Assembly (NCBI GenBank): GCA_024276125.1
Contig: JAJRXT010000129.1
Span: 1-64,000, forward strand
Reading direction: 5' to 3'
Source: a bacterium
GTDB taxonomy: Bacteria; SZUA-182; SZUA-191; JAJRXT01
DNA: 64,000 nt
The notes below the pieces were generated by a model, which worked only from the letters and a program-made list of their open reading frames with translations, was not told the DNA's origin and did not search any database. Below are positions 34,055 through 62,631 of the stretch, piece by piece; position 1 is the stretch's first letter; the number at the start of each line of letters is the position of its first letter. The position numbers were made by a program, and so were the translations under genes.

Positions 34055-34125
34055 GGTTAGCTGTTGTTGGGGGAACAATGTTCCCCAATGCTGTTGACTT
34101 AAGGCGCCTGTCATTATTTAACGGA

Positions 34126-34275: not shown

Positions 34276-34375
34276 TTGGAGCGAAGAATTTCCCCCTGCA
34301 ATAGCGAGTAGATTCTTCGGCCGAAGGCCTTAGAATGACAGGCGAAGAAAAGTCTTTTAAACACAAAATGTTTTT

Positions 34376-34450
34376 ATGTTTCAAGGTGTCTCACCCCGAA
34401 ACACACCTAGCGGTGAGCATTGGTTTCGGGGTGAGACACCCTGAAACATA
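34376..34450. repeat. Family B palindrome
   Basis: tgtttcaaggtgtctcaccccgaaacacacctagcggtgagcattggtttcggggtgagacaccctgaaaca. Confidence 0.8.
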
Positions 34451-34598
34451 CACATAAACAGGTTGAAACATCGAATTGTCATTCTGAACGAAACGGAGTG
34501 AAGAATCTTATTGCTGTTAGCGGGGGGATTCCGGCCTGCGGCCTCAGAATGACAGATAAATTGGTCGGGGCGGATGCGCCCTTTTGGTGAAAGATTAA

Positions 34599-35819: not shown

Positions 35820-35987
35820 ACGATAACCAATGTAGAGAATTTTAAGGGATATTGGGTGTTAATGGGGATTGTTTATTGCAGCAGACAAATTTTATTGGGT
35901 AAAAGCAGGTTGTTTGTTCGTCCGCATTTGGGGGCGCCGGATATTGCGGCTTACAATTATAATGGAAGAATATTCTAAGGCCTTGTT

Positions 35988-37187: not shown

Positions 37188-37479
37188 CAGCAGGTAACTT
37201 AATGGAAGCAAACTTATGTTATGTTTCAGGGTGTCTCACTCCGAAACATAAGATATAAGGATGAGCAACTTGCTTCGGCATGAGACATACCGAAGCATAG
37301 CTATATTGTAATGAAAAGCTTTTTTAAAACCTGTCATTCTGAGGCCGAAGAATCTACTTGCATATGTGAGGAGATTCTTCACTTCACTTCACTTACGTTA
37401 CGTTCAGAATGACAGTCCTCTTAAGTCAACAGCATTGGGCGTATAGTCTTGGTAGGTACAATTTAACGTAAACTGGATT

Positions 37480-39030: not shown

Positions 39031-39054
39031 GGGGGCGAGGTATTTGTTCTGGAA

Positions 39055-39441
39055 ATGGGAAAGCCTATAAAAATTTATGATTTAGCCAAAAGATTAATTA
39101 ACCTGCATGGAAAAACATTGGACGATGATATTGGAATTACTTTTGTGGGTACCAGACCGGGCGAAAAACTTAGCGAGGAGTTGTTTAATTCTCATGAACA
39201 TAAATTTCCGACTGCCTGTAAAATGATTAATATGGCCAAATCAGAACCTATAGATTATGAAGTTATAAATAAACAAATCCTTATATTGCAGGAACTTGTG
39301 CAAAAAAGAAATGAGCGTGTCTTGGTCGACATGCTAAATAAAATAGTTTTAAGAGATTATCCGGTATTGGATGATTATGATGATACCAAAAAGGTTGAGT
39401 TGGACCTGCCGGGTTTAAAGTATGGGGGAAGCATTGGGTAA
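39055..39441 (+). CDS. CapD/FlaA1-like epimerase, C-terminal part
   Basis: In frame after the TAA: 'GGEVFVLEMGKPIKIYDLAKRLINLHG...GTRPGEKLSEELF'. Confidence 0.9.
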   Translation: MGKPIKIYDLAKRLINLHGKTLDDDIGITFVGTRPGEKLSEELFNSHEHKFPTACKMINMAKSEPIDYEVINKQILILQELVQKRNERVLVDMLNKIVLRDYPVLDDYDDTKKVELDLPGLKYGGSIG

Positions 39442-41095
39442 AAGTAAGGTTTTTGTAATTGGTTTGGATGGAGCGAGCTTTGATTTGCTGGCGCCATGGA
39501 TGCAGCAAGGTAAACTGCCGAATTTGGCTAATATCCTTAGGCAGGGTACAAGCGGCGTATTGCAATCGGTTATTCCTCCGATAACTACGCCGGCTTGGGT
39601 TTCGTTTCAAACTGGAAAGAATCCGGCTAAGCATGGCTTGTTTTCCTGGGTTAAACGCGAGGCGGACAGCTATCGCGTGGCGCCGTTTAATTCGAGTAAT
39701 ATTGGAGCAGAGACGATTAGCTCCATGTTGAGCCGTCATGGTCGTCGGGTAGGGTTGATTAATGTTCCCTGCACCTTTCCGCCGGCTCCTGTAAATGGAT
39801 TTGTAGTAACCGGTTTAGAGACGCCTAACAGAAACAGTAATTATACTTATCCTGAAAAACTGGCGCATGAATTAATAGATAGATTTGATTATGAAATTGA
39901 GCGTACGCAAAAATATAAACAGGGTAATGAGGATAGTTTTATCCAGGCGGTGGAATCGGTTGAGCATAAGCGAGCTAAAGCTGTATTATATATGATGGAT
40001 AAATATGAGTGGGATTTTTTTATGACCGTCTTTAGAGGAACGGATATTTTATCCCATGCCTTCTGGCGTTTTACCGATCCGGAACATCCTAGATACGATG
40101 CTCAATTAGCCGAAAAATATGGAAATGTACTGCTTAATCATTATCAGGGTATGGATAAAATAGTCGGTGAATTGGCGGCTAGGCTGGATGATGATACTGA
40201 TGTTATTATTATGTCTGATCACGGTTCGGGGCCTACTTGGCGCTATGTATATCTGGATAATTATTTTATTAAATTGGGAATAACCAAATTAAAAAGAAGC
40301 CTTTATACTGATGTACGCTATAGTTTATTCAAAATGGGGCTTACGCCGAAAAATATTTTAAAGCTATTATCCGCCCTTGGATTACGCAACTTAAGCCGCC
40401 GCCTGCTTCCCGGTGATTTGCGGGCTAAGATCAATTCTCATATGACGCTGAATTCCAATATAGACTGGAGCCGTACCAAGGCATACACCATGGGTGGAGT
40501 GGGGCAGATATATATAAATCTAAAATGGCGCGAGCCGCAAGGGTGTGTGGAGGCCGGCGCTGAATATGATGAGCTGACGGCTTATATTAAAGAACAGCTT
40601 TATAAATTAACCGATCCGGGGACCGGTCAAAAAATGGTTAAACGGATATTGGATAAAAACGAGCTTCCCGGCGGAGCCGAGGGCTTTCCCACTCCTGATC
40701 TTTATGTGGAATGGGTGAATGATTTGTATGCTGATCTGGGTATATTGGGTTATTCCAGCGAGCTTATGTCTGAGTATTTAACTGAGCCTTCCGGCGGGCA
40801 TACTATGCGTGGAATATTTATAGCTAAAGGCCCCAGCTATAGACAGGCTGAACAAGTTACTAACGCTAAGATTACAGACGTACTGCCCTGTATCCTGTAC
40901 GGATTGGGTCTGCCCATACCTGATGATCTGGACGGAGCGCTCTTAAAAGATGCTTTCAGACCGGAGCTGCTTGCACAGCGTCCCGTGGAATATGAGAAGA
41001 CAAACTATAAAAAACAGGATGATGAGTATTCATATTCCCAAGACGAGCGGGATGAGGTAAAAGAACGGCTGAAAGCTCTGGGATATATTGCCTGA
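39422..41095 (+). CDS. Alkaline phosphatase-superfamily phosphodiesterase/nucleotide pyrophosphatase
   Basis: 'VFVIGLDGASFDLLAPWMQQGKLPNLANILRQGTSGVLQSVIPPITTPAWVSFQTGKNPAKHGLF', 'MSDHGSGP', 'GGHTMRGIFIAKGP'. Confidence 0.9.
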   Translation: MGEALGKSKVFVIGLDGASFDLLAPWMQQGKLPNLANILRQGTSGVLQSVIPPITTPAWVSFQTGKNPAKHGLFSWVKREADSYRVAPFNSSNIGAETISSMLSRHGRRVGLINVPCTFPPAPVNGFVVTGLETPNRNSNYTYPEKLAHELIDRFDYEIERTQKYKQGNEDSFIQAVESVEHKRAKAVLYMMDKYEWDFFMTVFRGTDILSHAFWRFTDPEHPRYDAQLAEKYGNVLLNHYQGMDKIVGELAARLDDDTDVIIMSDHGSGPTWRYVYLDNYFIKLGITKLKRSLYTDVRYSLFKMGLTPKNILKLLSALGLRNLSRRLLPGDLRAKINSHMTLNSNIDWSRTKAYTMGGVGQIYINLKWREPQGCVEAGAEYDELTAYIKEQLYKLTDPGTGQKMVKRILDKNELPGGAEGFPTPDLYVEWVNDLYADLGILGYSSELMSEYLTEPSGGHTMRGIFIAKGPSYRQAEQVTNAKITDVLPCILYGLGLPIPDDLDGALLKDAFRPELLAQRPVEYEKTNYKKQDDEYSYSQDERDEVKERLKALGYIA

Positions 41096-41393
41096 GATAA
41101 TCGTTAAAGAGTCCATTTTTCTCTTTGTAGCCGCGGGTTTTTAAACCCGCCCCTAATGGCAATGTTGTTGACTTAAGGCGCTGGATAATATTTGTTTTAA
41201 TAGCTGTCATTCTGAACGAAGCGGAGCGCAGTGAAGAATCTTCTCACGTAGGCTGTAGATTCTTCGGCCTTTGGCTTCAGAATGACAGGCTAACAAAGAT
41301 TTTCTTGTAAAATTAATAGCCTACAATAACATTGGTTTCTAACAGACTGATCTTTCGGTCGGCGCCTACATTTGTGCTTAACTAAAACAATCA

Positions 41394-42602
41394 ATGAAAA
41401 AAAAAATTAAAGTAGTTCATTTAAGTAATTTTGATGTGGGTATTCAGATTCATATGCGCAATCAGATGCTCTATCTAAGAAAACAGGGCTATGATATATC
41501 CATAATTTGTAATCCCGGGCAAATTGTAAAAGGCGATATGTATACTCCGGACGGTATATTTGTAAAAGCTATTGCCTTCTCACATAAGATTACCCCTTTT
41601 AAGGATTTGGCTGCGCTTTTTAAATTAATTTCCTATTTCCGCAAAGAAAAATTCGATATTGTACACACCCATACCATAAAGCCCGGGTTATATGGACGGC
41701 TGGCCGCCCGAATAGCCGGAGTACCTATTGTTCTTCATACTATTCACGGCTTTCATTTTCATGATGAGATGCACCCTTTGGCTGTTTTTATATATAAATG
41801 GGTGGAGAAATTCGGCGCTTTTTTTTCCGATTTAATATTTTCGCAAAATAGAGAAGATATTGCTGTCGCCGAAAAAAGCGGGATAGCCCCTGCCGGTAAG
41901 TTAAAATATTTGGGAAACGGTATTGATATAGATACTTTTAATCCGGCTAGGGTCAGCCCTGCTCTGGTGAGCAAAAAACGCAGTGAATTGGGGTTTAGCG
42001 AATCGGATAAGATAGTATGTATGGTGGGCAGGCTGGTTGCTGAGAAGGGATTCAGGGAATATTGCGAGGCTGTGCGCATTATATCTAAAAAAGGACTGCC
42101 GATTAAATTTATTGCCATTGGAGCGGTACATCATAAAGCCGGCGCATTAGACCCTCGGGAGTTAATCAAGAAAAATAAACTTGAGGATACCATGTTTTTT
42201 TTAGGCCGGCGCAATGATGTAGCCGATATCATGGCGGCGGTTGATCTGGTGGCGCTACCTTCTTATGCCGAGGGCATACCGCGGGTTTTGATGGAAGCCG
42301 GCGCAATGGGTAAGCCGGTGGTGGGCACTGATGTACGGGGTACGCGCGAGATTGTGAAGGATAATATAACCGGCAGGCTGATACCGGTTAAGGATGCGGT
42401 GAGTCTCGCGGATGCTATAGTGGAAATTATATCTGATCCGAATAAAATGCAGAATATGGGAGCCGCCGCCCGGGAATTGGCGCTTGATATGTTTGATGAG
42501 CGTATATATTTCAGGCGGACGGATAGGGAATATCGACGTTTGGTTAAAGATAAAATATCAGAAGATAAATTAGAAGGACTCAAACCGATTTTGGTGAAAT
42601 AG
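41394..42602 (+). CDS. Glycosyltransferase family 4
   Basis: 'FDIVHTHTIKPGLYGRLAARIAGVPIVLHTIHGFHFH', 'VCMVGRLVAEKGFREYCEAV', 'ALPSYAEGIPRVLMEAGAMGKPVVGTDVRGTREIV'. Confidence 0.94.
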   Translation: MKKKIKVVHLSNFDVGIQIHMRNQMLYLRKQGYDISIICNPGQIVKGDMYTPDGIFVKAIAFSHKITPFKDLAALFKLISYFRKEKFDIVHTHTIKPGLYGRLAARIAGVPIVLHTIHGFHFHDEMHPLAVFIYKWVEKFGAFFSDLIFSQNREDIAVAEKSGIAPAGKLKYLGNGIDIDTFNPARVSPALVSKKRSELGFSESDKIVCMVGRLVAEKGFREYCEAVRIISKKGLPIKFIAIGAVHHKAGALDPRELIKKNKLEDTMFFLGRRNDVADIMAAVDLVALPSYAEGIPRVLMEAGAMGKPVVGTDVRGTREIVKDNITGRLIPVKDAVSLADAIVEIISDPNKMQNMGAAARELALDMFDERIYFRRTDREYRRLVKDKISEDKLEGLKPILVK

Positions 42603-42620
42603 GATAGGGCGGGGTTACTT

Positions 42621-42780
42621 CCAATGCTGTTGACTTAAGGAAATTTTGTGCTTAAAAAAACTTTTCTTAGTCTGTCATTCTGAGGCTGGAAGCCGAAGAA
42701 TCTTATTGCATATAGAGACAGATTCTTCACTCCACTTTGTTTCGTTCAGAATGACAGCTACCTTAAGTTAACAGCATTGA
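42621..42780. repeat. Complete composite element: family A core with family G terminal inverted repeats
   Basis: ccaatgctgttgacttaagg ... tgtcattctgaggctggaagccgaagaatct...agattcttcactccactttgtttcgttcagaatgacag ... ccttaagttaacagcattga (160 bp). Confidence 0.85.
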
Positions 42781-42852
42781 GGCTTGTCCTCTCCCATTGA
42801 TTCTGGCGGGGACAAGCCGCCGCCTCTACAGGTTAATAATAAGGGAAACACC

Positions 42853-43749
42853 TTGAATTTAGAATATATGAGGCAATTCTACGAACGTTCCGGTTATAAA
42901 GTTATTAAAAGTAAAAATTTTTATTGGCTGGAGATGAGTAATAACTTTTATCAGGCTATGCCTCCTTCAGGAATTATAGAACCTGAGCCTGCGGAAATAC
43001 AGGAATTGTTTCGTAAACACCGTATATGGGGTTTAAAATACAGTACCAAAAGCGCTGGATTGGGTCAGGAGGGTTATTTATACTGCTGTTATGATAAAAC
43101 CTATGATTTTAAAAATATGGGCGCCAGTACCAGAAGGAATATGAGGAAGGCGCTTAAAAAATGTAGTGTTGAACCTATTGATTTTGATTATCTGGCTAAA
43201 GAGGGTTTTAAATTAAATACTGATACTCTGGGCAGGCAGAAGCGTCATGATCCGGCTTTTTTAGATTATAAGCGCTGGAGCGCTATGTGCCGCGCCGGTA
43301 AGGATACTGCCGGGGCTGAAGTTTGGGGGACATTGGTTGACGGCAAATTGGCCTCATATATGATTGCTTTTCAGGTGGGTAAGGTGTTTGAAATACTGCA
43401 TCTTATGTCGCGAAGCGATTTTAGGGCTTATTATCCCAATTATGCTCTATTGTATACAGTGTTAAATAATGTACTCAACAAAAGGCCGGAGGTTGTTTGT
43501 GTATGCGGCGGGACCAAATCTATAAGACCGATTAAAGGGGTAAATGATTATAAATTAAGGGTGGGTTTTGATAAAAAACCGGCTAATTTTGTCGTAATAT
43601 TAAATCCATGGTTGAAATTCTTTTTACTTAACAAGCTTAGTCAACTGACTTTTCAGGGTATGTTTAAGCTTTTTCCTAAAAACGATCGGGTGCGCCTAGC
43701 CTATGGTATGGTCGGTATGGCTCATGAATCCGGCGGTTTTTATAAGTAA
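42853..43749 (+). CDS. FemAB-like/GNAT-fold acyltransferase
   Basis: 'GASTRRNMRKALKK', 'GTLVDGKLASYMIAFQVGKVFEILHLMSRSDFRAYYPNYALLYTVLN'. Start moved from 42784 to TTG 42853 after aaggga. Confidence 0.7.
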   Translation: MNLEYMRQFYERSGYKVIKSKNFYWLEMSNNFYQAMPPSGIIEPEPAEIQELFRKHRIWGLKYSTKSAGLGQEGYLYCCYDKTYDFKNMGASTRRNMRKALKKCSVEPIDFDYLAKEGFKLNTDTLGRQKRHDPAFLDYKRWSAMCRAGKDTAGAEVWGTLVDGKLASYMIAFQVGKVFEILHLMSRSDFRAYYPNYALLYTVLNNVLNKRPEVVCVCGGTKSIRPIKGVNDYKLRVGFDKKPANFVVILNPWLKFFLLNKLSQLTFQGMFKLFPKNDRVRLAYGMVGMAHESGGFYK

Positions 43750-47753: not shown

Positions 47754-48189
47754 TTTAATAGTATATGAATTACATTTTTCCCCTTTGTAGCTGCCGACCT
47801 TTAGGTCGGCAGCTACGACAGGTTATGTTTCTATAATAACCTGAGTTCGACATAAGAGTTGTTGAATTAAGGAAATTGTCATTCTGAACGAAACGGAGTG
47901 GAGTGAAGAATCTGCCCGCAACAGCGAGCAGATTCTTCGGCCTGCGGCCTCAGAATGACAGACTAAAAGAGACTTTTCAGTGTCAACGTATCTTAAGTCA
48001 ACAACATTGCCGTAATTTGGGAGGGGACAAGCCTCTCCCTTACTGTAAATCTATGTTAATTGTTTGATATGTAAGAGTCTTATACTCTTATTCTGCCGAC
48101 TTTAAAGCTCGGATTGTTAGCCCTCAAGAGGGCGGGTTTAAAAACCCGCCGCTACGAGTTTGTTTTGAGTTTGATGGCCGGCCTAAAGG

Positions 48190-48462: not shown

Positions 48463-50037
48463 ATGGTATTCGGTATTAGGGGCTTGGAGGATTTGGGGAA
48501 AATCCGTATAAGTTTTTTAGGCGCGCCCAGATATATTGTCTCCGGTTTGGCGGGTGATTTAAGGCTGGTGACTAAAATACCTCGTTCGTCTAGGTGGATG
48601 TCTATGCTGGGCGATGATAATAGCGCCGAGCGGCTTGTGCCTGATATTTTGGTTTATAATGAAGAGGGCTTTTACCGGCAGGTTGATAACTGGTCAAAGG
48701 GACAGCTTATTTCTATTAATGACCGCGATTTTGTATATACTGAAATTAAAAAAAACAAGGCTAAATACTTTGTGCTGAACGTAAAATTACCGTCGGATAT
48801 TACGCCCGGGATATATGAGCTTTTAGTAAGGCTGGAGAGCGTCACTTTCAGCATGATAAAAAAAGAGATTACCATAAAACTTGAGGTTTTGCCTTTTGCT
48901 CTTGATCCTGCGGATAAATATATACTGGCGATGTCTAATGATTTTGGTACTCCGAGAAGTAAATATTTTGAGGCGGCGCTTATCGATCAGAGCGAACATG
49001 GTATGAATGCTACGCGCATGAGGCGTTTGGTGAATAAAGATGATCCTGAAAAATACTATCAAATACTTAAAAAAAATGGATTTCATACTGTTATGCACGA
49101 TGATGCTCCCGTTAATAAAGACGCAGCCGTACATAAGCGTTATGGCATTAAGCAAATTTTTTACGGAATAGACGAGCCGCAGCCCAAACGACGATTTAAT
49201 AATTCATGGAACAGGATGCTGAAACATCTGGAATTATCGCGGCGGATTCATCAAATGGGCGGTTTGGTGGGTACCTCCCTGCCTTATTTATTCGGGGTGC
49301 AATTGCGTGTTCCGGGCAGTTCGGTTTATGTAAAATTACCCTCTCATAAGCTAAAACAAAAAAATCTGTTTGAACCGCTTGACTGGGCGAATTATCCTTT
49401 AGCTGTACAAAAATTGGGGATAAAAAGAAGACGTCCGCTAAATCAGGATTTATGGCAGTATATTAAAGGACTCCAGCAGGAATATGAAACCGGTCAAATA
49501 GAACCAAACGGCAAACCCTCATCCAAACATTCATGGAGCGAGACATATTATCTGCCCTTGGGCTTTTTAAGATATCCATTTTATGCCCGCCTGTTATATG
49601 GTTTTTATTTGTTTAATTCTCACTTAGACGGCGTTTGTGCCTGGACGTATTATCGCCCCAAAGGCAATCCATTTGATGATTCCGACGGGATTGACGCCAC
49701 CTTGGCATATCCCACACTTGAAGGGGCTATTGCTTCTACATATTGTTGGGAGGCTGTAAGTAAAGGCGTAAATGATTTGCGCTATGCCCTAACAGCACAA
49801 AAATTAATAAAAGAATTGAAAAAAATTAAAAGCGCAAGTAAAAGTGAACTGGCTTATAAATTGGAAAAAGAATTTCTGCGTATTCTGGCTCCTTTTAAGT
49901 CTTTGGAAATACGCGATGATACAGATACAAAACGAATTGATAAGGTTTTTTCTAATAAGGATTTGCAGCGGGCAAGGGAGAAGTTAATTGGTATTATCTT
50001 AAAAGCTTCTCAGAGTTTAGGGACGGCCCTTAAGTAA
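48463..50037 (+). CDS. DUF4091-like/glycoside-hydrolase-like protein, main part
   Basis: 'MVFGIRGLEDLGKIRISFLGAP', 'DITPGIYELLVRL', 'YFYGIDEPQP'-like 'IFYGIDEPQP', 'LDGVCAWTYYRPKGNPFDDSDG', 'YPTLEGAIASTYCWEAVSKGVNDLRYALTAQKLI'. Confidence 0.75.
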   Translation: MVFGIRGLEDLGKIRISFLGAPRYIVSGLAGDLRLVTKIPRSSRWMSMLGDDNSAERLVPDILVYNEEGFYRQVDNWSKGQLISINDRDFVYTEIKKNKAKYFVLNVKLPSDITPGIYELLVRLESVTFSMIKKEITIKLEVLPFALDPADKYILAMSNDFGTPRSKYFEAALIDQSEHGMNATRMRRLVNKDDPEKYYQILKKNGFHTVMHDDAPVNKDAAVHKRYGIKQIFYGIDEPQPKRRFNNSWNRMLKHLELSRRIHQMGGLVGTSLPYLFGVQLRVPGSSVYVKLPSHKLKQKNLFEPLDWANYPLAVQKLGIKRRRPLNQDLWQYIKGLQQEYETGQIEPNGKPSSKHSWSETYYLPLGFLRYPFYARLLYGFYLFNSHLDGVCAWTYYRPKGNPFDDSDGIDATLAYPTLEGAIASTYCWEAVSKGVNDLRYALTAQKLIKELKKIKSASKSELAYKLEKEFLRILAPFKSLEIRDDTDTKRIDKVFSNKDLQRAREKLIGIILKASQSLGTALK

Positions 50038-50579: not shown

Positions 50580-52610
50580 ATGAAAAGAACAGCGCTTCTG
50601 GGTTTATGTTTGTTGAGCCTATTGGCCTTTCTACCTGCCGCAGCCAGCGCAGCTTCTCCATCTGTTTCCTGGGTTCGTACCCATGATAGCGGTATAGATG
50701 ACTGGGCGGCCAGCGGCGGCGTAGTTGTGGATAAGGCGGGCGATATTGTGGTGGTTGGTCATGAGGGGATGATTGCTGATCTGCGTATTATAAAATACGA
50801 TACAGACGGTAATGAGAAATGGAATAGGCTATTTGACGGCGGCGGGGATGATTGGGCGACCGCTTCAGGGACTGTGTTAATCGATTCTGCGAATAATGTA
50901 GTAATTTCAGGTACCACTTGCGGCCCTGCTCCTGATTGGTTGAATTCTTATTTTGTGGTTAAATACGATGCAGATGGTAATTTATTGTGGAGTAATGTTC
51001 AATATTTAGGTAATTATGCCTGGGCCTGGGCTGCCAGCCTTGATGCCAATGATGATGTAGTGTTGTTAGGTTCAGCGTATAATGGGGCTGATTATGATTT
51101 TATGACCATGAAGTTTAGTTCAGCGGGCGCCTTTTTGTGGTCACAAACTTTTGACAGCGCTGCTGATGATTGGTGCGGCTGGGGCGTTGATATTGATTCG
51201 GCTAATAATATTTTGGTTACCGGTTCATTTTTTAATGGCGCCAATACTGATATATGTACTATAAAATATGACCCAAGCGGCGCTCTTGTTTGGGCGCAGG
51301 CATATGACAGCGGTAGTAAGGACGGCGGCTTTACGGTTACGGTTGATTCAATGGATAATGTTATTGTAGCCGGTTATTTTGATAATTCAGTGACTTCTGA
51401 CGTAAGACTTTTAAAATACAATTCCGCTGGAGCCTTGCTCTGGGAGCTTTCATATGATGATGGGGTCAATGAATATTTATATGAGGTGAAAACCGATTCG
51501 GCTGACCGGATAGTGCTTGCCTGCAGTTCTGATAATGGACTGAACAAGGATTATAGCGTGATAAAGTATACCGCTGGCGGCAGTATTTTGTGGAGCAAGA
51601 TTTATGATGGCGGTACAAACGAAAGATTCTGGAATCTGGCTATAGATGCTAGAAATTACATAGTAATTACCGGTGAGTCAATAAATACTGTTACCGGCAA
51701 TGCAGATATTTGTACTGTAATGTATGATCCCGGCGGCGGAGAGTGCTGGGTTGCTACCGTTGATAAAGGCGTTGATGATTATGGTACTGGAGTAGCCATT
51801 GATCAATATGCTAATGTTATTGTTTTAGGCTCTACGTTTAATGGCACGGATTACGATTTTTATATTTCAAAATACGATAGAATCTATGTGGAAGCGGAAC
51901 AAGTGTTCACTAAGGATGTAACAGGCGCTTGGAATGCTGTAGTTGCACCCGATGATACGGTAAAGGTTAATCTGGCAATAACCATACATGGTAATCCGGC
52001 TGAAGAGTATAGTTTTCAGCTTCGCACCTTTTTTGTGGATGCGCTTGGAACACAAAGCCTGATGCGTTCAAAAACATATGGAGGCTATGCTCCAGGAACA
52101 TATTATGTGGCCTTTGATTGCACAATACCGGCGGCAATCGCTACCGGTAAGGGAGAGATTCTAAATGTAGTTGCCTTGGGTCATGCTGATTGTGTGTTTG
52201 ACAGAAAAAAAACATCCTGTTACGTGCATTATCCCAGCGGTAGTATGTTGACGGCTGGCAGTATAGATCAGGTATACACGGAAGATGCGACGCCGCATTG
52301 GAGCGCTATTTTTGCGCCTGGCGATAATCTTAGCGTTAATCTGGCGGTTAATATAGAGGGTGACCCTTCAAAGTTATATGACTTTAATATCCGTACATTT
52401 CTTACTGATGCAGACGGGGTTGAAAGTTTGCTGGCAAATCGTACTTATGGGGGCGCTACACCAGGGACATTTTATCTTTCCAGGGATGCTGTAATGCCTG
52501 CTGCGGCAGCCAGCGGTCGGGCTACTTTAAGTCATGTACTTTTTGTTGCTGAGCAAGGCGGTCCGATTGCCGTTCGTGATCGGCTGGTTAATTATGTAAA
52601 TGTAGAGTAA
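50580..52610 (+). CDS. Secreted SBBP-type beta-propeller protein with two C-terminal copies of domain X
   Basis: Signal peptide; repeated 'YDSGADDW..GVDIDSANNILVTGSFFNGANTDICTIKYDPSGALVWAQAYDSG'; domain X near 51882-52233 and 52246-52607. Confidence 0.88.
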   Translation: MKRTALLGLCLLSLLAFLPAAASAASPSVSWVRTHDSGIDDWAASGGVVVDKAGDIVVVGHEGMIADLRIIKYDTDGNEKWNRLFDGGGDDWATASGTVLIDSANNVVISGTTCGPAPDWLNSYFVVKYDADGNLLWSNVQYLGNYAWAWAASLDANDDVVLLGSAYNGADYDFMTMKFSSAGAFLWSQTFDSAADDWCGWGVDIDSANNILVTGSFFNGANTDICTIKYDPSGALVWAQAYDSGSKDGGFTVTVDSMDNVIVAGYFDNSVTSDVRLLKYNSAGALLWELSYDDGVNEYLYEVKTDSADRIVLACSSDNGLNKDYSVIKYTAGGSILWSKIYDGGTNERFWNLAIDARNYIVITGESINTVTGNADICTVMYDPGGGECWVATVDKGVDDYGTGVAIDQYANVIVLGSTFNGTDYDFYISKYDRIYVEAEQVFTKDVTGAWNAVVAPDDTVKVNLAITIHGNPAEEYSFQLRTFFVDALGTQSLMRSKTYGGYAPGTYYVAFDCTIPAAIATGKGEILNVVALGHADCVFDRKKTSCYVHYPSGSMLTAGSIDQVYTEDATPHWSAIFAPGDNLSVNLAVNIEGDPSKLYDFNIRTFLTDADGVESLLANRTYGGATPGTFYLSRDAVMPAAAASGRATLSHVLFVAEQGGPIAVRDRLVNYVNVE

Positions 52611-52914
52611 ATATTTTGTTTGATACGGAAGTTAGTTTGATTTCTGTAGGGGCGGGTTTCAAACCCGCCCTTTGTATCTTGAAATTTGTGTTTTATTTTT
52701 CGGGGTGAGACATCCCTAAAAATATGACTTTTTATAACTGTCATTCTGAGGGAGGCGCAAGCCGACCGAAGAATCTGCTTGCATATGGGAGTAGATTCTT
52801 CACTCCGTTGCGTTCAGAATGACAGTTCTCTTAAGTCAACGGCATTGGCGGCTAAAGGCGGGTAATCCGCACCCTAGCTACGCTAAATTTTATTATTTTA
52901 TCAGGTAATCGTAT

Positions 52915-54645
52915 ATGAAAAAATTGTTGTCCGGCAATGAAGCTATTGCCCGCGGGAGTTATGAGGCCGGAGTTAGGTTTGCGACTGCTTATCACGGTAC
53001 TCCCAGCACTGAAATATTGGAAGAATTGGCAAAATATGATCAAGTTTGCGCTGAATGGTCGATTAATGAAAAGGTAGCCTTGGAAAAAGGAATAGGCGCC
53101 GGTTTGGGCGGAGCAAGGAGTTTGGTTGCCATGAAGCACGTAGGGTTGAATGTAGCAAGCGATCCATTTATGATTTTAGCTTATACCGGCGTGTGCGCGG
53201 GTATTGTCATTGTAAGCGCTGATGACCCTTATATGCACAGCTCTCAAAGCGAGCAGGATAACCGGAATTATGCCAAGTTTGCTAAAGCGCCTATGTTAGA
53301 GCCGGCGGACAGCCAGGAGGCTAAAGATTTTACCAAACTGGCTTTTGATTTAAGCGAAAAATTCGATACTCCGGTTATGCTTAGGACTACTACCAGGATT
53401 TCTCATTCAAAATCCGTGGTAGAGCTTGGCGAAAGACATGAAGTAATCCACCCGCCGTTTGATAAGGATGTGGCTAAATATGTGATGATTCCGGTTTTTG
53501 CCCGTAAAAGGCGCCTTATTATGGAAAATCGTATGCAGCAGATAGCCGGTTTAGTTGAAACGATTGGGTGTAACAGGGTAGAATATAATAATCGGCGCTT
53601 GGGTATAATATGCAGTGGAATTGTCTATCTGTATGTAAAAGAGGTAGTACCGCAGGCCTCTATACTTAAGTTGGGTGTAACTTATCCATTGCCGCAAAAT
53701 AAGATCAAAGAATTTTGTGCATCGGTGGATAAAGTCTATGTTATAGAAGAGCTTGATCCATTTTTGGAAGAGCAGATAAGGGCTATGGGATGCTCAGTTA
53801 TCGGAAAAGAAGCGATACCCTCAGTGGGCGAGCTTAATCCTGATATAATAGCGGATGCTTTGGGGATAAGGCGTAAGGCTGCCGATGTTTCGGATAAATC
53901 ACACTTACCGGCCAGACCGCCTAGTTTTTGTCCCGGCTGTGCTTATCGCGGGGTGTTTTATTTCTTAAAGAAATTAAAAGTTAGGGTAATGGGCGATATT
54001 GGCTGCTATACTTTGGGAGCGCTGCCTCCTTTAGAGGCGATTGACGCTGTTTTTTGTATGGGGGCGAGCATTGGCTGCGCTTTGGGTTTTGAAAAGGCGG
54101 TGAGTGATCCCGATGTAAAAGCGGTGGCTGTAATTGGCGATTCCACTTTTTTTCATTCTGGTATTACAGCTCTTATTGATGTAATTTACAATAAGGGAGT
54201 TGGTACGGTTATTGTTTTGGATAATCATACTACTGCTATGACCGGTTTTCAGGATCATCCGGGCACGGGCAAGACTCTTAAAAGAGAGGGTTCTCAGGCG
54301 GTTGATTTAGTCAAATTGGGTGAGGCGGTCGGTTTTAAAAGGGTGATAACATTTGACCCATATGATATGGATACTGTTTATAAGGTATTAAAAGAGGAAA
54401 TTAAAAGGGAAGAACCCTCGCTTATTATTTCAAAACGAAGCTGTTTATTGCTGGATAAAAAAAGGAAATATCAAAAGCGTAAAATAGATGCGGCAAAGTG
54501 TAATGGCTGCGGGGTTTGTCTTGGGCTGGGGTGTCCGGCTTTGGGTGAAACAGATAATAAAAAAGTAAAAATAGAACCTGTAATGTGTAATGGCTGTCCT
54601 GTTTGTGAATATGTATGCCGGCAGGGGGCTATTGAGAGTGCTTAA
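52915..54645 (+). CDS. iorA: Indolepyruvate ferredoxin oxidoreductase, alpha subunit
   Basis: 'LLSGNEAIARGSYEAGVRFATAYHGTPSTEILEEL', 'MGASIGCALGFEKA', TPP site 'VIGDSTFFHSGITALIDVIYN', C-terminal 4Fe-4S 'CNGCGVCLGLGCP', 'CNGCPVCEYVC'. Confidence 0.95.
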   Translation: MKKLLSGNEAIARGSYEAGVRFATAYHGTPSTEILEELAKYDQVCAEWSINEKVALEKGIGAGLGGARSLVAMKHVGLNVASDPFMILAYTGVCAGIVIVSADDPYMHSSQSEQDNRNYAKFAKAPMLEPADSQEAKDFTKLAFDLSEKFDTPVMLRTTTRISHSKSVVELGERHEVIHPPFDKDVAKYVMIPVFARKRRLIMENRMQQIAGLVETIGCNRVEYNNRRLGIICSGIVYLYVKEVVPQASILKLGVTYPLPQNKIKEFCASVDKVYVIEELDPFLEEQIRAMGCSVIGKEAIPSVGELNPDIIADALGIRRKAADVSDKSHLPARPPSFCPGCAYRGVFYFLKKLKVRVMGDIGCYTLGALPPLEAIDAVFCMGASIGCALGFEKAVSDPDVKAVAVIGDSTFFHSGITALIDVIYNKGVGTVIVLDNHTTAMTGFQDHPGTGKTLKREGSQAVDLVKLGEAVGFKRVITFDPYDMDTVYKVLKEEIKREEPSLIISKRSCLLLDKKRKYQKRKIDAAKCNGCGVCLGLGCPALGETDNKKVKIEPVMCNGCPVCEYVCRQGAIESA

Positions 54646-54661
54646 AAAAAAGAATTATAAA

Positions 54662-55234
54662 ATGGATACAAAAAGTGTTTCTATCGTTGGTATAGGCGGT
54701 CAGGGTATTATTATGGCCAGCGAAATAGTTGCTTGCGCTTTGATGCTCGCTGGTTTTGACGTTAAAAAAAATGAAATAAAGGGTATGTCGCAGATGGGCG
54801 GCAGCGTTAGCTCTTGTCTTAGATTTGGTCAAAAGGTGTATTCTCCGCTGCCTCAAAACGGGCAGACTGATATTTTATTGTCTTTTGAACTAATTGAAGC
54901 CTGCCGCAGCATAGACTGCTTAAGAGCGGATGCTCCGGCGATTATAAATAATTTTAAGCTTAATCCTATGGGCAGCTCCAATTGTGAATTGGATTTAATT
55001 GGGCAGTTAAGGCAGAGCGGGCGGAATATAATTTTGGTGGATGGTATAAAGCTGGCCTTAGAAGCGGGGAATATTAAGGCGGTAAATGTGGCCTTATTGG
55101 GAGTTTTGGCTAATTATTTATCATTAGAAAAAGATGTTTGGCTTCAGGCTGTTGCACAATTGGCGCCTAAAAAAACTTATAAGATAAATGAAAAAGCTTT
55201 TATGCTGGGTTATCAGAATGACAGTTGTGTCTAA
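54662..55234 (+). CDS. iorB: Indolepyruvate ferredoxin oxidoreductase, beta subunit
   Basis: 'SIVGIGGQGIIMASEIVACALMLAGFDVKKNEIKGMSQMGGSVSSCLRFG'. ATG at 54662 preferred over 54590. Confidence 0.92.
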   Translation: MDTKSVSIVGIGGQGIIMASEIVACALMLAGFDVKKNEIKGMSQMGGSVSSCLRFGQKVYSPLPQNGQTDILLSFELIEACRSIDCLRADAPAIINNFKLNPMGSSNCELDLIGQLRQSGRNIILVDGIKLALEAGNIKAVNVALLGVLANYLSLEKDVWLQAVAQLAPKKTYKINEKAFMLGYQNDSCV

Positions 55235-55602
55235 GTAGATGCGGGTTTTTAAACCCGCCCCATGGGGCTGAGCTTTTTGGCCGGCGGCTACAATAGCCCG
55301 CACCGGCAGGCGCGCTAATTTGAAAAAACAAGTAATAACTAATTAGTTGAGTTGTATGATAACTTTAGTGGTAAAAATAAAAAGGTCAAAAAATAGTTAC
55401 TTTTTTCTTGCAAAATGCTTGTCCAGCCTATATTATATTAATATAAAGTAATATATTCTTTTCCAGAAAAAATCAGAGCCTAAAATTGAAGGAAGTTTCT
55501 TTCCTCTTTTGCTTTAATTGGAAAGAAGGGAATACTCTTGTCAGCCGCTCTTGTGGTGATAAGTGTTCCTTGATTAACTTGTTGTATCGGCTGTTTATTT
55601 TA

Positions 55603-55938
55603 ATAACGTGAGTTCGACATAAAATTTGTTGAATTCATTAAACTGTAGGGGCGGCGGCTTATCCCCGCCCATGATTTGGGAGGGGATAAACTCCAATGCC
55701 ATTAAGTTAAGGAAATTGTCGTTCTTAAACGAAACGAAGTGGAGTGAAGAATCTGTATGCGTATGCGAGTAGATTCTTCGGCCTCCGGCCTCAGAATGAC
55801 AGGCTAAGAAGAGCTTTTCATTATAGTATAAAGCTTAAGTTAACGGCATTGGGGATAAACTCCTCCCCTACAGTAAATTTATATCAATTGATTGATATAT
55901 AAAACCTTTTAGTGTTCTTATGTCGATCTCACGTTTTA
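55603..55938. repeat. Nested repeat: family H arms enclosing hairpins and a complete family G-A-G element
   Basis: aataacgtgagttcgacataaaatttg ... ccaatgccattaagttaagg[A core]cttaagttaacggcattgg ... ttcttatgtcgatctcacgtttt. Confidence 0.8.
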
Positions 55939-55971
55939 ATCAGCAGCCTTTAAGTTGTTTGTGTAGGGGAG

Positions 55972-56460
55972 GTGAGTTTGTTGTTTTCTAGTGGTAAGAA
56001 GTTATTTGTTTTTTTTGTGTGCGTAGGTTGTTTACTCGTATTTACTAAAGGCTCTTTTGCAGAAGATAAATCTGAAACTGATCAGAATAAAGGCGGTGAA
56101 GTTGTTTATCAGGCCTGCCTGCCGGGTTCTGTTTATAATGTTTCTTTAAGTCGCGGCGGTCGATTTATAATGCAGGATTGTTTTCATTTTGAAATGGACG
56201 GGACTTTTTTCAAACAGTCGCATACTTGTAGCGCTTCTACTTATTTGATGTGTAATGATATTGCAGGAATAAAATGTTATTTTACAGCGCAGTTGTTGTT
56301 TCCGGGTACTACCCTGATTGTTGACGGGACTGTTTCGGCTGATTGTCAGAGCATTGAAGGCACTGTCTTGGACGCTGCCAGAAACAGGGTTTTTGATTTT
56401 ACCGGCGTAAAAAGTGTGAACTGCACTTTGGGGCAAACCGGCATAGATACTTGTGACTAA
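55972..56460 (+). CDS. Secreted hypothetical protein
   Basis: Signal peptide 'LFVFFVCVGCLLVFTKGSFAE'; no family recognised. Confidence 0.65.
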   Translation: MSLLFSSGKKLFVFFVCVGCLLVFTKGSFAEDKSETDQNKGGEVVYQACLPGSVYNVSLSRGGRFIMQDCFHFEMDGTFFKQSHTCSASTYLMCNDIAGIKCYFTAQLLFPGTTLIVDGTVSADCQSIEGTVLDAARNRVFDFTGVKSVNCTLGQTGIDTCD

Positions 56461-56921
56461 GATTTGTTGAATATGTTTCGGTATGTCCCATGCCGACTTT
56501 TTATAACTGTCATTCTGAGGGAGGCGCAAGCCGACCGAAGAATCTGCTTGGATATGCTAGTAGATTCTTCGCTTCAGAATGACAAACTTAAAACCTATTA
56601 TAGAAACACACCTAGCGCTTAAGCAATTGTTTTGGGGTGAGACACCCAGAAACATAACCCGCAGCAGAAGGTGCGATATGTTAATTGTAGAGGAAATTCC
56701 ATTTTATTGTAGATGCCGACTTTTATATCGGCCTGTCAAAGGTACAACAAACTTTAAGACCGGCGTAAGCGATACTCGACCTAAAGTTCGGCATCTACAG
56801 AAATTCGCGCCAAAGGTGTGCTAATTTAATTAGGAGGTGATCCTCGGGCTAATTAGGATTTGTATTTATTGGGAAGTGGTTTTAATTTAAATGTAGTTTT
56901 TTTTTAACAGGAGGCATTATT

Positions 56922-58739
56922 TTGAAAAATAAATCTTTAAAATTTGCGGTGATGTCAATTGCTGCTGCGATGTTATTAAGCAGTTCTCTGGCATTTGCCG
57001 GCGGGGCGGCCTCAGACAGCGCCGGTCCCGGCGCCGGCGGGGCGCGTATAAACGATAATACAGCGGCTGGTACAGTTACTTATACCGGTCAGAACACGCC
57101 TATTCCGGCTACTGTAGGGATGACTTACAATACGGATACCGGTTCTTTGTGGCTTTTTGAACATTCTACTCAAAATGTTTGGGAGTATAATTTGGCTGGA
57201 TTGCCTACGGGAGGCGGTTTTACTTGGCCTTATGCAGAAGCTGATCCGGCTCATGGTTTAACCTTTAATCCGGTAACCGGTACATTTTTTGCCTCAAGCG
57301 CCAGTAGTGCAACGGTAACAGAATCGGATTATGCCGGAAACCCGCTTAGCCTTTTCCAAACCAGCAGATCAGATCAGACCGGTATTGCCGCTAATCATAA
57401 TACCGGCAATCTGTATGTTACCCAATACGCCGCTGGTACTATTGAAGAATATACCTCAGCCGGCGTCTTGGCGGGTACATTTGCCGCTATGACCACCCCT
57501 CTGGGGATGCACTATGATCCTTGTACAGATCATCTGTGTGCTGTACATAACAATGGAACAGATTTGATTGAAATGGACCTTACAGGCACTATTTTGGCTA
57601 CGTATAATCTGCCGGCTATAATTGGAGTGTCCGTAAGAATCCGCGGTTTGGCCTTTGATTATGACAATGGTTTCTTTTACGCAGCAAATGAGTTGGACGG
57701 CGTCTTATATCAGCTTAAGTATGATGTATCCTGCGGCGGCGGTATTCCTGCCGGTGTTGATATTGATCAGCTCTATACTTTTGATGGAACCGGCGCATGG
57801 AGTGCGGAGTTTGCTCCCGGCGATGTGATAACCGTAAATGAAGCTATTACTATTGTAGGCGATCCTGCTCAGGTTTATGATATGCAGGTGCGTTATTACT
57901 TTACTGATGCCGCTGGTAACAATTTCTTGTTAGGCAAACAATTATATCGTAATTATAGTCCCGGTACTGTGTATGTATCCTTAACCGGCGCTGTACCTGC
58001 AAATGCAGCTCCCGGCAGAGGCGCTGTAAGAAACGCCGCTCTGCTGGCACAAGGTCCTGTTTTGCTTGACAGAGGTACTTTGGCCGGATATGTGAACATT
58101 AGCGGAGCCGGCGGAGCCTATGGATTTGTTGAGGACTTTAATGACGGCGCAGCCGATAATTGGGTAGACGACGGCAGCGGACGTTGGAGTGTGACTAATG
58201 AGTATGTAATGAGTGGAAACAGCTCTCTTACTTGGGGAACTAGCTCTTACAATGACACTTACAGTGACTTTGTTTATGAAGTGAGCTTACAAAAGACCGC
58301 TGGTGACGGGACATCCATGGGGTTGTTGTTTAGGGAAAATGACTACTTCGGCGCCGCTGGGGATGGCTATGGTTTTTGGATTACTAGCACTGGAGACTGT
58401 AGCGTTTGGAAACACGTAGGCGGCGTTTCCAGCACCCTAGTGCCTTGGACTGCGTCAGCATTTATAAATCAGGGTCTGGGCGCTTGGAATACACTCGCAG
58501 TGGATGTCAATGGCAGTACCTTGACTTTTTACATTAATGGTAACCTGTTGACCTCTCTTGTGGACAGCTCTTTTGCTTCCGGTAAGGCTGGCGTGGCCGT
58601 CTATGATAGTTCACCGGATGTGGTGCATTATGATAATGCCTCATTGACCTGCGGCGGCGGTCCTGCTGCGGTTGCTCCGGTTGCGGTTACTCCTATTGAT
58701 CCGGTTGCTGCTGGTATTCAGGAACACATTTCCGAGTAG
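56922..58739 (+). CDS. Secreted protein: NHL/propeller-like N-terminus, domain X, LamG/ConA-like domain
   Basis: Signal peptide 'FAVMSIAAAMLLSSSLAFAGG'; domain X 57757-58100; 'FVEDFNDGAADNWVDDGSGRWSV...GVAVYDSSPDVVHYDNASLTC'. Confidence 0.85.
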   Translation: MKNKSLKFAVMSIAAAMLLSSSLAFAGGAASDSAGPGAGGARINDNTAAGTVTYTGQNTPIPATVGMTYNTDTGSLWLFEHSTQNVWEYNLAGLPTGGGFTWPYAEADPAHGLTFNPVTGTFFASSASSATVTESDYAGNPLSLFQTSRSDQTGIAANHNTGNLYVTQYAAGTIEEYTSAGVLAGTFAAMTTPLGMHYDPCTDHLCAVHNNGTDLIEMDLTGTILATYNLPAIIGVSVRIRGLAFDYDNGFFYAANELDGVLYQLKYDVSCGGGIPAGVDIDQLYTFDGTGAWSAEFAPGDVITVNEAITIVGDPAQVYDMQVRYYFTDAAGNNFLLGKQLYRNYSPGTVYVSLTGAVPANAAPGRGAVRNAALLAQGPVLLDRGTLAGYVNISGAGGAYGFVEDFNDGAADNWVDDGSGRWSVTNEYVMSGNSSLTWGTSSYNDTYSDFVYEVSLQKTAGDGTSMGLLFRENDYFGAAGDGYGFWITSTGDCSVWKHVGGVSSTLVPWTASAFINQGLGAWNTLAVDVNGSTLTFYINGNLLTSLVDSSFASGKAGVAVYDSSPDVVHYDNASLTCGGGPAAVAPVAVTPIDPVAAGIQEHISE

Positions 58740-58841
58740 TTTTGGTTGTTGTTAATTAGTTTGATATGGGGCGGGAGAGCCGGCGGTAAAGTTATTTCCG
58801 GCTCTCTTTTACCATATTTACTTGAGGAGACCAGGGCCGAA

Positions 58842-59996
58842 ATGAGAAAAATGCTTTATATCGCAATTAGCGCATTTGTAGTTTTAGGGGTAATTAGCAG
58901 CGCTTATGCCGTAAGTTCTGACGCTGTGGTTTTTGAAGGCGATAGCGGACAGGTTGTAGTACAAGATGCGCCTGATATGCTTTCGATTGATGCAATAGTT
59001 GCACCCGAAATCAATATTGACGAAATATATACCTTAGATGCAGCCGGCGCTTGGAGTGCGGAATTTGATCCCGGCGATGAGTTAACCGTAAACGAAGCGA
59101 TTACAATTGCAGGCGATCCGGCTCAGGTTTATGATATGCAGGTGCGTTATTACTTTACAGATGCAGCCGGTAATGATTTCTTGTTAGGCAAACAATTATA
59201 TCGTAATTATGCTCCCGGTACTGTGTACGTATCCTTAACCGGCGCTGTACCGGTAAATGCCGTCCCCGGCAGGGGCGCTGTGAGAAACGCCGCCTTATTG
59301 GCTCAAGGCGCTACTTTACTTGATAGAGGTACTTTAGCCGGTTATATTAATGTTGGCGATGGATGCGGATTTACCGAGGATTTTAATGACGGCGCTGCCG
59401 ATAACTGGGTTGATGACGGCAGCGGACGCTGGGGTGTTGCCGGCGGCGAGTATGTGATGACGGGAACCGGCGCTATATGGGCTAATACAAGCTATATGGA
59501 AACCGGTAATCAGGATTTTGCCGATTTTAGCTATCAGGTTGATATAAATAAAATATCCGGTAATGAATTATCTTCTATGGGGGTTATTTTCAGATCAGAT
59601 GGCGCAGCTCCTAAAGCCGGCAATGGTTATGCTTTTTACATTACTGCATACGGTGATTATTCCTTGTGGGAATATACTGAGGGAGCGGTAACAGCCCTTA
59701 TTCCATGGACAAATTCTCCGTTGATCAATACTGGAATAGGCGCTGTAAATACCGTAAAGGCAACTGCCTGCGGAGCCAATATCGAGCTTTATGTTAATGG
59801 TTCGTATTTAAACGGAGTAACTAATACCGCTCATGCTTTCGGTCTTGTCGGTCTTCAGGTTTATGACGCATCAATGGATGTGGTTTTGTTTGATAATGCG
59901 TCTTTGGTTTGCGCATGTTCCATGCCGTATGCCGGCGCTAAAGTAAAAAGCGGCGCTGTAAATGCTGCTGTTGGTGATGACAGCTCATCTCGGTAG
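58842..59996 (+). CDS. Secreted protein: domain X plus LamG/ConA-like domain
   Basis: Start set at ATG 58842 (MRKMLYIAISAFVVLGVISSAYA); domain X 59008-59355; 'FTEDFNDGAADNWVDDGSGRWGV...LQVYDASMDVVLFDNASLVC'. Confidence 0.85.
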   Translation: MRKMLYIAISAFVVLGVISSAYAVSSDAVVFEGDSGQVVVQDAPDMLSIDAIVAPEINIDEIYTLDAAGAWSAEFDPGDELTVNEAITIAGDPAQVYDMQVRYYFTDAAGNDFLLGKQLYRNYAPGTVYVSLTGAVPVNAVPGRGAVRNAALLAQGATLLDRGTLAGYINVGDGCGFTEDFNDGAADNWVDDGSGRWGVAGGEYVMTGTGAIWANTSYMETGNQDFADFSYQVDINKISGNELSSMGVIFRSDGAAPKAGNGYAFYITAYGDYSLWEYTEGAVTALIPWTNSPLINTGIGAVNTVKATACGANIELYVNGSYLNGVTNTAHAFGLVGLQVYDASMDVVLFDNASLVCACSMPYAGAKVKSGAVNAAVGDDSSSR

Positions 59997-60126
59997 TTAT
60001 AGTGAGTTAGACTTATTAAACGCAGGATATTATGAAGTGTTTGGGTGATGGTTGCCTTTTATGATTATTATTATCTGTAATGGCTATTGAGTTCTCTTGC
60101 GAAACCAAAGCTATTTAATTTTATTA

Positions 60127-60212
60127 GCTGTCATTCTGAACGAAACGAAGTGGAGTGAAGAAGCTGCCCACGTATGCTCACAGATCCTTCGGCCTACGGC
60201 CTCAGAATGACA
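60127..60212. repeat. Family A palindrome
   Basis: gctgtcattctgaacgaaacgaagtggagtgaag ... ccttcggcctacggcctcagaatgaca. Confidence 0.85.
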
Positions 60213-60276
60213 GAATGTAATTATTTTCGGAGTTAACTCTAGTAGCGCATTATCTATCAAGGAGACTAAGACTAAA

Positions 60277-61422
60277 ATGAGAAAAATGCTTTATATGGCA
60301 GTTAGCGCATTTGTAGTTTTAGGAGTTATGAGTAGCGCATATGCTGGAATGGATGTAGAAGGCGAGGTTGGAAAAATAGTTATTAAAGAGGCAGCCGAAG
60401 CGGGAGCGCTGATTGTGCCGGAGGTTAAAATTGATCAACTTTATACTCAGGATGCTGGCGGTAATTGGAGCGTAGGTTTTAGCGCGGCAGATGAGATAAC
60501 CATAAATGAAATAATTACCATTACAGGCGATCCAGGCCGGCTTTATAATTTAAAGGTTTGCTATTTCTTTACGGATTCAGCGGGTAATGATTATTTATTA
60601 GGGAAACAAGTATACCGCAATTATCCCCCCGGCGCTGTTTATGTACATCTGAGTACGCCAGTACCGCTTGGCGTGACTAGTTGTAGGGGAACGCTTAGGA
60701 ATGCCGCTGTTTTAAGTTACGGCGATGTTGTGCTTGATAAGGGGACTTTAGCGGCTAAGATAAAGATTGCCGGATGTTGTCCGGGCGGGTTTAATGAAGA
60801 TTTTAATGACGGTATTGCCGATAACTGGATTGATGATGCAACAGGACGCTGGGATGCAGCCGGCGGAGAGTATGTAATGACCGGTAATAGTTCAGGATGG
60901 GCGAATACAAGCTATAAGCAGTTTGGTAATCAGGATTTTGCTGATTTTAGTTATCAGGTTGATGTAAAAAAGACGGCTGGATATGAGTCTGATTCAATGG
61001 GGATTATTTTTAGAGCAGACGGGGCGGCTCCTAAGGCTGCCAATGCTTATGCCTTCTACATTAGCGCAGATGGTGAGTATTCCTTATGGAAATACACTAA
61101 CGGGACTTTTTCTAACTTGATTCCATGGACAGTGTCGCCATTATTAAATATTGGAATTGGCGCCGTTAATAATATCAGGGTATCTGCCAGCGGAGCTAAT
61201 ATATCTCTTTATGTGAATGGTTCATATTTGGACGGGGCGGTTGATTCTACTCATACCTCTGGCATGGTTGGGTTTCAGTTATATGAAGCAACAAACGATG
61301 TAGTGGTCTATGATAACGCAGTGTTGATATGCGGGGCTCCGCCCATGCCTGGCGGCAGGGCTGGTGAGCCTAGCGGTAGTACATTGATTGCTAGAGGGGG
61401 TGGTGATAGCGGTTGTAGGTAA
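60277..61422 (+). CDS. Secreted protein: domain X plus LamG/ConA-like domain (paralogue of the 58842 gene)
   Basis: Near-identical signal peptide MRKMLYMAVSAFVVLGVMSSAYA; domain X 60424-60769; 'FNEDFNDGIADNWIDDATGRWDA'. Confidence 0.87.
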   Translation: MRKMLYMAVSAFVVLGVMSSAYAGMDVEGEVGKIVIKEAAEAGALIVPEVKIDQLYTQDAGGNWSVGFSAADEITINEIITITGDPGRLYNLKVCYFFTDSAGNDYLLGKQVYRNYPPGAVYVHLSTPVPLGVTSCRGTLRNAAVLSYGDVVLDKGTLAAKIKIAGCCPGGFNEDFNDGIADNWIDDATGRWDAAGGEYVMTGNSSGWANTSYKQFGNQDFADFSYQVDVKKTAGYESDSMGIIFRADGAAPKAANAYAFYISADGEYSLWKYTNGTFSNLIPWTVSPLLNIGIGAVNNIRVSASGANISLYVNGSYLDGAVDSTHTSGMVGFQLYEATNDVVVYDNAVLICGAPPMPGGRAGEPSGSTLIARGGGDSGCR

Positions 61423-61617
61423 TTTTTAAGTAGTTATAGTTTAGTTGTACAGTTTTTTTAAAGTTGTAGCTATGCGGGGTTTTAAACCCGCATATTGGCC
61501 GACCTAAAGGCTGGTTTTGGGGTAAGATATCCCCAAGCATAAAAGATTAGGCTGCTACAATGGATGGTTCGCACTAAATGTGCGGTATGTTTTTTATTGT
61601 TTTATGGAGGTTTTATT

Positions 61618-62631
61618 ATGAAGATGAAAAAATTATTGGGTATGGCGGTTAGCGTATTTGCCGTTTTCGGTCTTTTAAGCAGCGCATATGCCGGAAATTT
61701 TGATGGAGCAGCGGTTGAAGGTGATACCCAGCGGGCGGTTATAGAAGAGACGCCGGACATAATTGCGCCTCCGCCGGGCGCTACAATTATTAATTTTGAT
61801 GATACTGTTGAACCGTGTGTGTTTGCTTCTACTGTAGCGCTTAGGGCTAAATATGCTGCGCAGGGCGTTACATTCAGCGGCGCTGCACCCTTAGACGGCG
61901 GCGCTATCTTAGATGAATGCGGTAATTTTGGCGTTAGCGGTCACAGCTCTCCCAATTTTTTAGCCATTAATTGCGGGTCAAGCCTGTCAGACGGCGGTAT
62001 TCCTCAGAATCCAGAATATTTAGATTTTAATCCGCCGGTTGATTATGTACAGATTAATGCGGGTTCCGGTTCAGGCGCCGGTACTACTGTTATCATGAAT
62101 GCCTATGATGCAGCCGGTAATTTGATTGGTTCTGACAGCTTAATTATGGCTAGCGTTCTGGATACTTTAAGTATTGCCGCAGCCGGTATATCCAGAGTGG
62201 AGATTACCTCTGCTGCCTGTATTCTTGTATTGGATGATTTGGCATTTACTTCAGGCTCTGTAGTTGTGCCGCAAGTAGATATTGATCAATTATACACTGA
62301 AGATGCCAATGGGCAATGGAATGTGATTTTTGCTCCGGGAAATACTATTGAAGTAAATGAAGCTATTACTATTGTAGGCGATCCTGCTCAGGTTTATGAT
62401 ATGCAGGTGCGTTATTACTTTACTGATGCCGCTGGTAACAATTTCTTGTTAGGCAAACAATTATATCGCGATTATGCGCCGGGCACTTATTATGTAGCTT
62501 TATCTGCGATAGTACCGGCAGGCGCCGCAGCCGGCAGGGCTGCCGTAAGAAACGCCGCTTTGTTGGCGCAAGGCGCTACCTTGCTTGACAGGGGTACATT
62601 GGCTGGCTATGTAAATATTGTTACTCCATAG
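61618..62631 (+). CDS. Secreted protein with C-terminal domain X
   Basis: RBS tggagg upstream of ATG 61618; 'MKMKKLLGMAVSVFAVFGLLSSAYAG'; domain X 62266-62628. Confidence 0.85.
   Translation: MKMKKLLGMAVSVFAVFGLLSSAYAGNFDGAAVEGDTQRAVIEETPDIIAPPPGATIINFDDTVEPCVFASTVALRAKYAAQGVTFSGAAPLDGGAILDECGNFGVSGHSSPNFLAINCGSSLSDGGIPQNPEYLDFNPPVDYVQINAGSGSGAGTTVIMNAYDAAGNLIGSDSLIMASVLDTLSIAAAGISRVEITSAACILVLDDLAFTSGSVVVPQVDIDQLYTEDANGQWNVIFAPGNTIEVNEAITIVGDPAQVYDMQVRYYFTDAAGNNFLLGKQLYRDYAPGTYYVALSAIVPAGAAAGRAAVRNAALLAQGATLLDRGTLAGYVNIVTP

Follow-up and report, generated by a model that had tools for sequence, protein, structure and literature searches.

A lineage-specific, mostly C-terminal domain on unrelated secreted proteins of an uncultured bacterium: a possible surface-retention or sorting module

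Several sorting systems were first recognised through a lineage-confined C-terminal domain family carried by many unrelated exoproteins. Lineage-specific paralogous C-terminal families, in which a suffix is carried by part of a protein family, have been described as a sign of such systems (Haft and colleagues, PMC3237569). In the PEP-CTERM/exosortase system, a tail common to diverse signal-peptide proteins is linked to an exopolysaccharide (EPS) locus (PMC1569441), while in T9SS the tail is a C-terminal Ig-like sandwich of seven strands in which the beta3-beta4 loop and the C-terminus are conserved (PMC11285876).

We analysed a stretch of 64,000 nucleotides (the window; positions 1 to 64,000 of contig JAJRXT010000129.1) that encodes a repeated domain, here called domain X, with likenesses to both systems. 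As with PEP-CTERM, X is a tail on diverse signal-peptide proteins and has a link to an EPS locus; unlike PEP-CTERM, it is predicted to be a folded domain, it has no PEP motif, and exosortase was not detected in the genome. The PEP-CTERM combination of a short motif, a transmembrane helix and a basic tail was not found in X. The T9SS C-terminal domains (Por_Secre_tail, TIGR04183, PF18962) share with X the C-terminal position, the seven-stranded Ig-like fold (predicted for X) and the occurrence on many unrelated exoproteins per genome. In contrast to them, X is sometimes internal or tandem and not always at the extreme C-terminus (14 of 17 carriers), and it matched none of the Pfam and NCBIfam tail models; we do not count it as a member of the T9SS family.

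The initial annotation of the window had reported X as a seven-fold domain of six proteins, and translation, alignment and a genome profile search placed all seven copies, on the forward strand, where they had been described. The six carriers also translate as described, each with a ribosome-binding site and a signal peptide. Copy A (27392-27751) closes a beta-helix and choice-of-anchor Q protein (26303-27754) encoded within an EPS locus, while copies B (51879-52235) and C (52245-52607) stand in tandem at the C-terminus of a delta-60/SBBP-type propeller protein (50580-52610). Copy D (57747-58103) is internal in its carrier (56922-58739), between an NHL/SdiA-regulated-like propeller and a ConA-like domain (PF06439). 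Copies E (59001-59357) and F (60418-60774) are internal as well, in carriers 58842-59996 and 60277-61422, in both cases between a short N-terminal stretch and a ConA-like domain (PF06439 in the latter), and copy G (62266-62622) follows the jelly-roll-like N-terminal part of its carrier (61618-62631) as the C-terminal domain.

Domain X is about 117 residues long; the alignment of its seven window copies covers 119-121 residues and has 16 invariant columns and a mean column identity of 66%. Searching the whole genome with the seven-copy profile yielded 12 further copies at E = 2e-50 to 1e-32, so the pattern is not a product of chance, and the set is larger than the seven copies of the initial annotation: eight contigs hold 19 copies in all, spread over 17 proteins. 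The window's own contig has an eighth copy just past the window end (64938-65288), at the C-terminus of a subtilisin (PF00082) whose gene starts at 62982 on the forward strand and runs on beyond position 64000. The closest pair of copies has a dN of 0.10 and a dS of 0.56, and in all measurable pairs non-synonymous distance is well below synonymous distance, which indicates that X is under constraint. A tree of the 19 copies had too few supported branches for timing the duplications.

The description of X as unrecognised held when single carriers and all 19 members were searched against Pfam, NCBIfam, PHROGs and the PDB: no family exceeded its cut-off, no PDB sequence match was significant, and a well-described domain family did not appear. 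Among the Pfam models, Wzt_C matched one of the 19 members at E 0.033, the best values for PKD and PPC were 0.074 and 0.21, and CARDB gave no match; none of these is significant. Sub-threshold matches to herpes gE, TumE and others were dismissed as chance or generic Ig-like similarity. Across about 650 sampled genomes, including eight others of the same class, one of them from the same family, X was not found, nor was it found among plasmids, phages and viral contigs; a weak match in one genome (G038, E 0.0098) was rejected as partial and low-scoring. Two scans of GTDB representatives with conserved peptide and DNA patterns, a procedure less sensitive than a profile search, gave no confirmed relative. 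The lineage specificity of X is well supported, and we make no claim of uniqueness, since the sample may omit very near genomes. X looks to be a previously undescribed domain family, specific to its lineage in both sequence and usage, and a curatable family model would re-annotate 17 proteins at once.

AlphaFold2, run on the seven-sequence alignment, returned a model with seven strands and a mean pLDDT of 93.6, from which X is confidently predicted to be a seven-stranded Ig-like beta-sandwich, a generic fold. Foldseek against the PDB listed many Ig-like sandwiches at best TM values of about 0.4-0.66, among them Wzt carbohydrate-binding domains, GH3 enzymes and CARDB, and a viral structure library gave generic matches only. 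The Wzt C-terminal carbohydrate-binding domain (PF14524) is one of the nearest solved structures by fold (TM 0.56-0.66), but Wzt is a cytoplasmic ABC subunit, and the homology suggested by the structure search was ruled out by profile comparison, with an hhalign probability of 2% for X against a profile of Wzt_C domains from the same class. CARDB, PKD and PPC are, like X, Ig-like accessory domains of secreted proteins, and CARDB 3idu is among the structural matches; they show no significant profile match to X. The most conserved positions over the 19 copies are I35, G37, D53, L60, P71, G72 and P83, followed by Q7, L61, G89 and R108. By the strand assignment of the model, the best-conserved positions would mostly be turn and core residues, and we saw no obvious catalytic set or cluster among them. 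A predicted structure of X together with the ConA-like domain was set aside for its low confidence (pLDDT 43.7).

The carriers were said to be secreted without exception, and a signal-peptide-like start, called by a hydropathy check rather than by SignalP, is indeed present in 16 of the 16 carriers with a complete N-terminus; the 17th is cut by a contig edge. Wide occurrence of X in non-secreted proteins, which would have spoken against this, did not appear. What the initial annotation lacked is the usual placement of X: in 14 of the 17 carriers it is the extreme C-terminus, with 1-4 residues between it and the stop codon. In the other three, the neighbour genes starting at 56922, 58842 and 60277, a ConA-like domain (PF06439) comes after X, and two carriers hold X in tandem. 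No clear C-terminal transmembrane segment was found in the carriers (maximum 17-residue mean hydropathy 1.64). The attached modules differ as had been noted, comprising beta-helices (Chlam_PMP repeats, choice-of-anchor Q), a delta-60/SBBP propeller, an SdiA-regulated/NHL-like propeller and ConA-like PF06439 domains; carriers outside the window add full SBBP proteins, another propeller pair, a jelly-roll-like protein and the subtilisin. With X left out, about eight unrelated groups can be told apart among the 17 carriers: beta-helix proteins (n=6), SBBP proteins (n=2), the other propeller pair (n=2), the X-ConA group (n=3), the delta-60 propeller, the subtilisin and two unrelated jelly-roll-like proteins. 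Next to the carriers there is no recurrent gene family, conserved partner genes were not found, and a sigma-54-type -24/-12 motif, as described for PEP-CTERM genes, is not a shared feature upstream of them.

The slot occupied by X is filled differently on sister proteins. The subtilisin starting at 62982 is 62% identical over 350 residues to a paralogue on another contig (C113), the former ending in X and the latter in CFI-box-CTERM (NF041770), which, by its NCBI name, is probably a sorting tail. The choice-of-anchor Q domain (NF041518), whose NCBI name indicates that varied anchors follow it, has 14 matches in the genome; X comes next in six of them, and two lie in proteins that end with CFI-box-CTERM. 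CFI-box-CTERM thus takes the same slot as X on both the sister subtilisin and choice-of-anchor-Q proteins, and X and a CTERM-type tail are alternatives downstream of one and the same domain, in keeping with the NCBI choice-of-anchor usage. In sequence the two are unrelated: CFI-box-CTERM is about 70 residues long and preceded by a Gly/Ser-rich linker, and X gave no match to NF041770. This swap indicates that X is a suffix that can be traded for an already known C-terminal module, a pattern of the sort that has led to the inference of sorting systems (PMC3237569). The remaining choice-of-anchor-Q proteins end with MopE-like repeats, cohesin/dockerin, multicopper oxidase or nothing more, which means that the tail slot is not reserved for anchors, and in class relatives CFI-box-CTERM or other tails come after choice-of-anchor Q. 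Read by eye, cohesin/dockerin-like and MopE-like repeats end the choice-of-anchor-Q beta-helix proteins L114 (contig C13), L113 (C37) and L112 (C32).

The carrier at 26303 is flanked by forward-strand exopolysaccharide genes of XrtA/PEP-CTERM type (24145-32606; export, outer-membrane barrel, chain length and tyrosine kinase), whose best matches, TIGR03027, TIGR03016, TIGR03007 and TIGR03018, are all below the curated cut-offs. The whole exopolysaccharide locus, with its XrtA/PEP-CTERM-like export, chain-length and kinase genes, spans 24145-43749. Exosortase was found in six of nine genomes of the class and was not detected in the X genome, in its family mate or in its order mate; as the genome is 94% complete, the enzyme is likely to be truly absent. 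The type II outer-membrane secretin GspD is present, while SprA gave no match in a search that had no positive control, none of the control genomes having given a signal. Neither a cognate enzyme nor a translocon for X was found.

X being nearly always the last part of unrelated secreted proteins suggests a shared tag for surface holding or sorting. The role had been offered earlier as attachment, glycan binding or sorting; we too can only infer it, and both the place of X at the C-terminus and its swap with CFI-box-CTERM speak for surface retention or sorting. We therefore propose, at a probability of roughly 45%, that X is specific to this lineage, has no catalytic role and serves exoproteins as a C-terminal module for surface retention or sorting. 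It would work like a T9SS-type tail without belonging to that family. X is appended, mostly as the last module, to proteins of a bacterium with an outer membrane, and these would leave by Sec export and then probably by type II secretion. Outside, X would hold unrelated exoproteins (beta-helices, propellers, subtilisin, lectin-like proteins) at the cell surface or within the exopolysaccharide, in the role that PEP-CTERM has in exosortase genomes and that CFI-box-CTERM probably has on sister proteins here, and it would have spread by duplication and segment exchange between genes. Counting in favour of this proposal are the occurrence of 19 copies on 17 carriers whose architectures are of about eight unrelated types, the signal peptides (16 of 16 testable), the flush C-terminal position (14 of 17), the GspD secretin and the structural-looking conserved residues with no obvious catalytic set; the differing tails of sister proteins and the apparent lack of exosortase in a genome that yet has XrtA-like EPS genes around an X carrier also point this way. 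What speaks most against a strict sorting signal at the C-terminus is that X is internal in three carriers and tandem in two, which keeps our proposal tentative. The generic Ig-like sandwich, the negative results for a cognate enzyme or translocon and for a recurring neighbour family, and the varied choice-of-anchor-Q tails also count against it. If correct, X would offer a defined, confidently predicted handle on how this uncultured phylum places proteins on its surface.

The internal and tandem copies and the ConA-like partners would suit a CBM-like accessory module that binds carbohydrate or matrix and docks exoproteins, from any position, on the cell's own or a foreign polysaccharide. An Ig-like sandwich whose top structural matches include Wzt carbohydrate-binding domains (TM up to 0.66), GH3 and CARDB agrees with such a role, as does the carrier encoded within the EPS locus, and we regard it as possible, if doubtful: X is not homologous to Wzt_C at the profile level, its best-conserved residues look structural, and it favours the extreme C-terminus more strongly than a CBM would be expected to. 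Conserved residues of this kind, mainly turn and core, together with the generic fold and the recombination of adjacent copies, would also fit a domain that has no specific partner and a structural role in spacing, capping or folding, its copies having multiplied through duplication and recombination. We consider this unlikely, because a pure spacer is not expected at the extreme C-terminus of 14 out of 17 proteins, nor would it alternate with CFI-box-CTERM on sister proteins.

Two further explanations would make X a signal in the narrower sense. It could tag an undescribed C-terminal sorting system, in which a folded Ig-like tag is read by dedicated outer-membrane machinery or a receptor, with exosortase missing and a T9SS-like logic of independent origin; we hold this to be quite improbable. 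Less probable still, and by our estimate a long shot, is that X acts as a true secretion signal for an undescribed or highly diverged T9SS-like translocon. The seven predicted strands, the invariant D53 and conserved G56 at the strand 3-4 loop and the position usually flush with the protein end recall T9SS tails, but their models give no match to X, SprA was not found (in the search with no positive control), some copies are internal, and a T2SS secretin is present. The retention or sorting role remains the reading that we prefer.

The initial annotation also held that X had been shuffled among exoproteins, and DNA identity mosaics bear this out for the neighbour genes starting at 56922, 58842 and 60277. 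Between 56922 and 58842, identity reaches 93% across X and falls to about 50% in the LamG/ConA-like part; the high-identity tract runs from 57750 to 58190 on the forward strand, matches 59000-59440, has flanks at about 50%, and points to recombination or gene conversion of X. Between 58842 and 60277 the pattern is reversed, with 85% identity in the signal peptide, about 70% in the ConA-like/LamG part and just 51-76% in X. Synonymous distances, rough where above 1, agree: 0.56 for X vs 2.4 for ConA in the former pair, and 1.95 vs 1.2 in the latter. Both measures indicate that X moved between neighbours separately from the rest of the gene, and, judging by these mosaics, X is exchanged by recombination among neighbouring carriers, a clear case of module exchange. 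Separately, a signal peptide with a short acidic N-terminal stretch is common to 58842-58914, 60277-60349 and 61618-61696, at 38-55% identity and independent of the rest of the proteins.

Other features of the window were recorded in passing. Three of its proteins have no Pfam match: 48463-50037 (524 residues), 42784-43749 (321) and 55972-56460 (162). Repeats of about 60-150 bp, often in inverted pairs ending in TTCAGAATGACA, are dispersed between genes and match the window 33 times against 0.4 expected, with examples at 22596-22609, 41274-41287, 47877-47960 and 60129-60212; they have no Rfam match, and the same repeats occur on other contigs. An IstB-like ATPase of an IS21-type element is encoded at 19766-20557.
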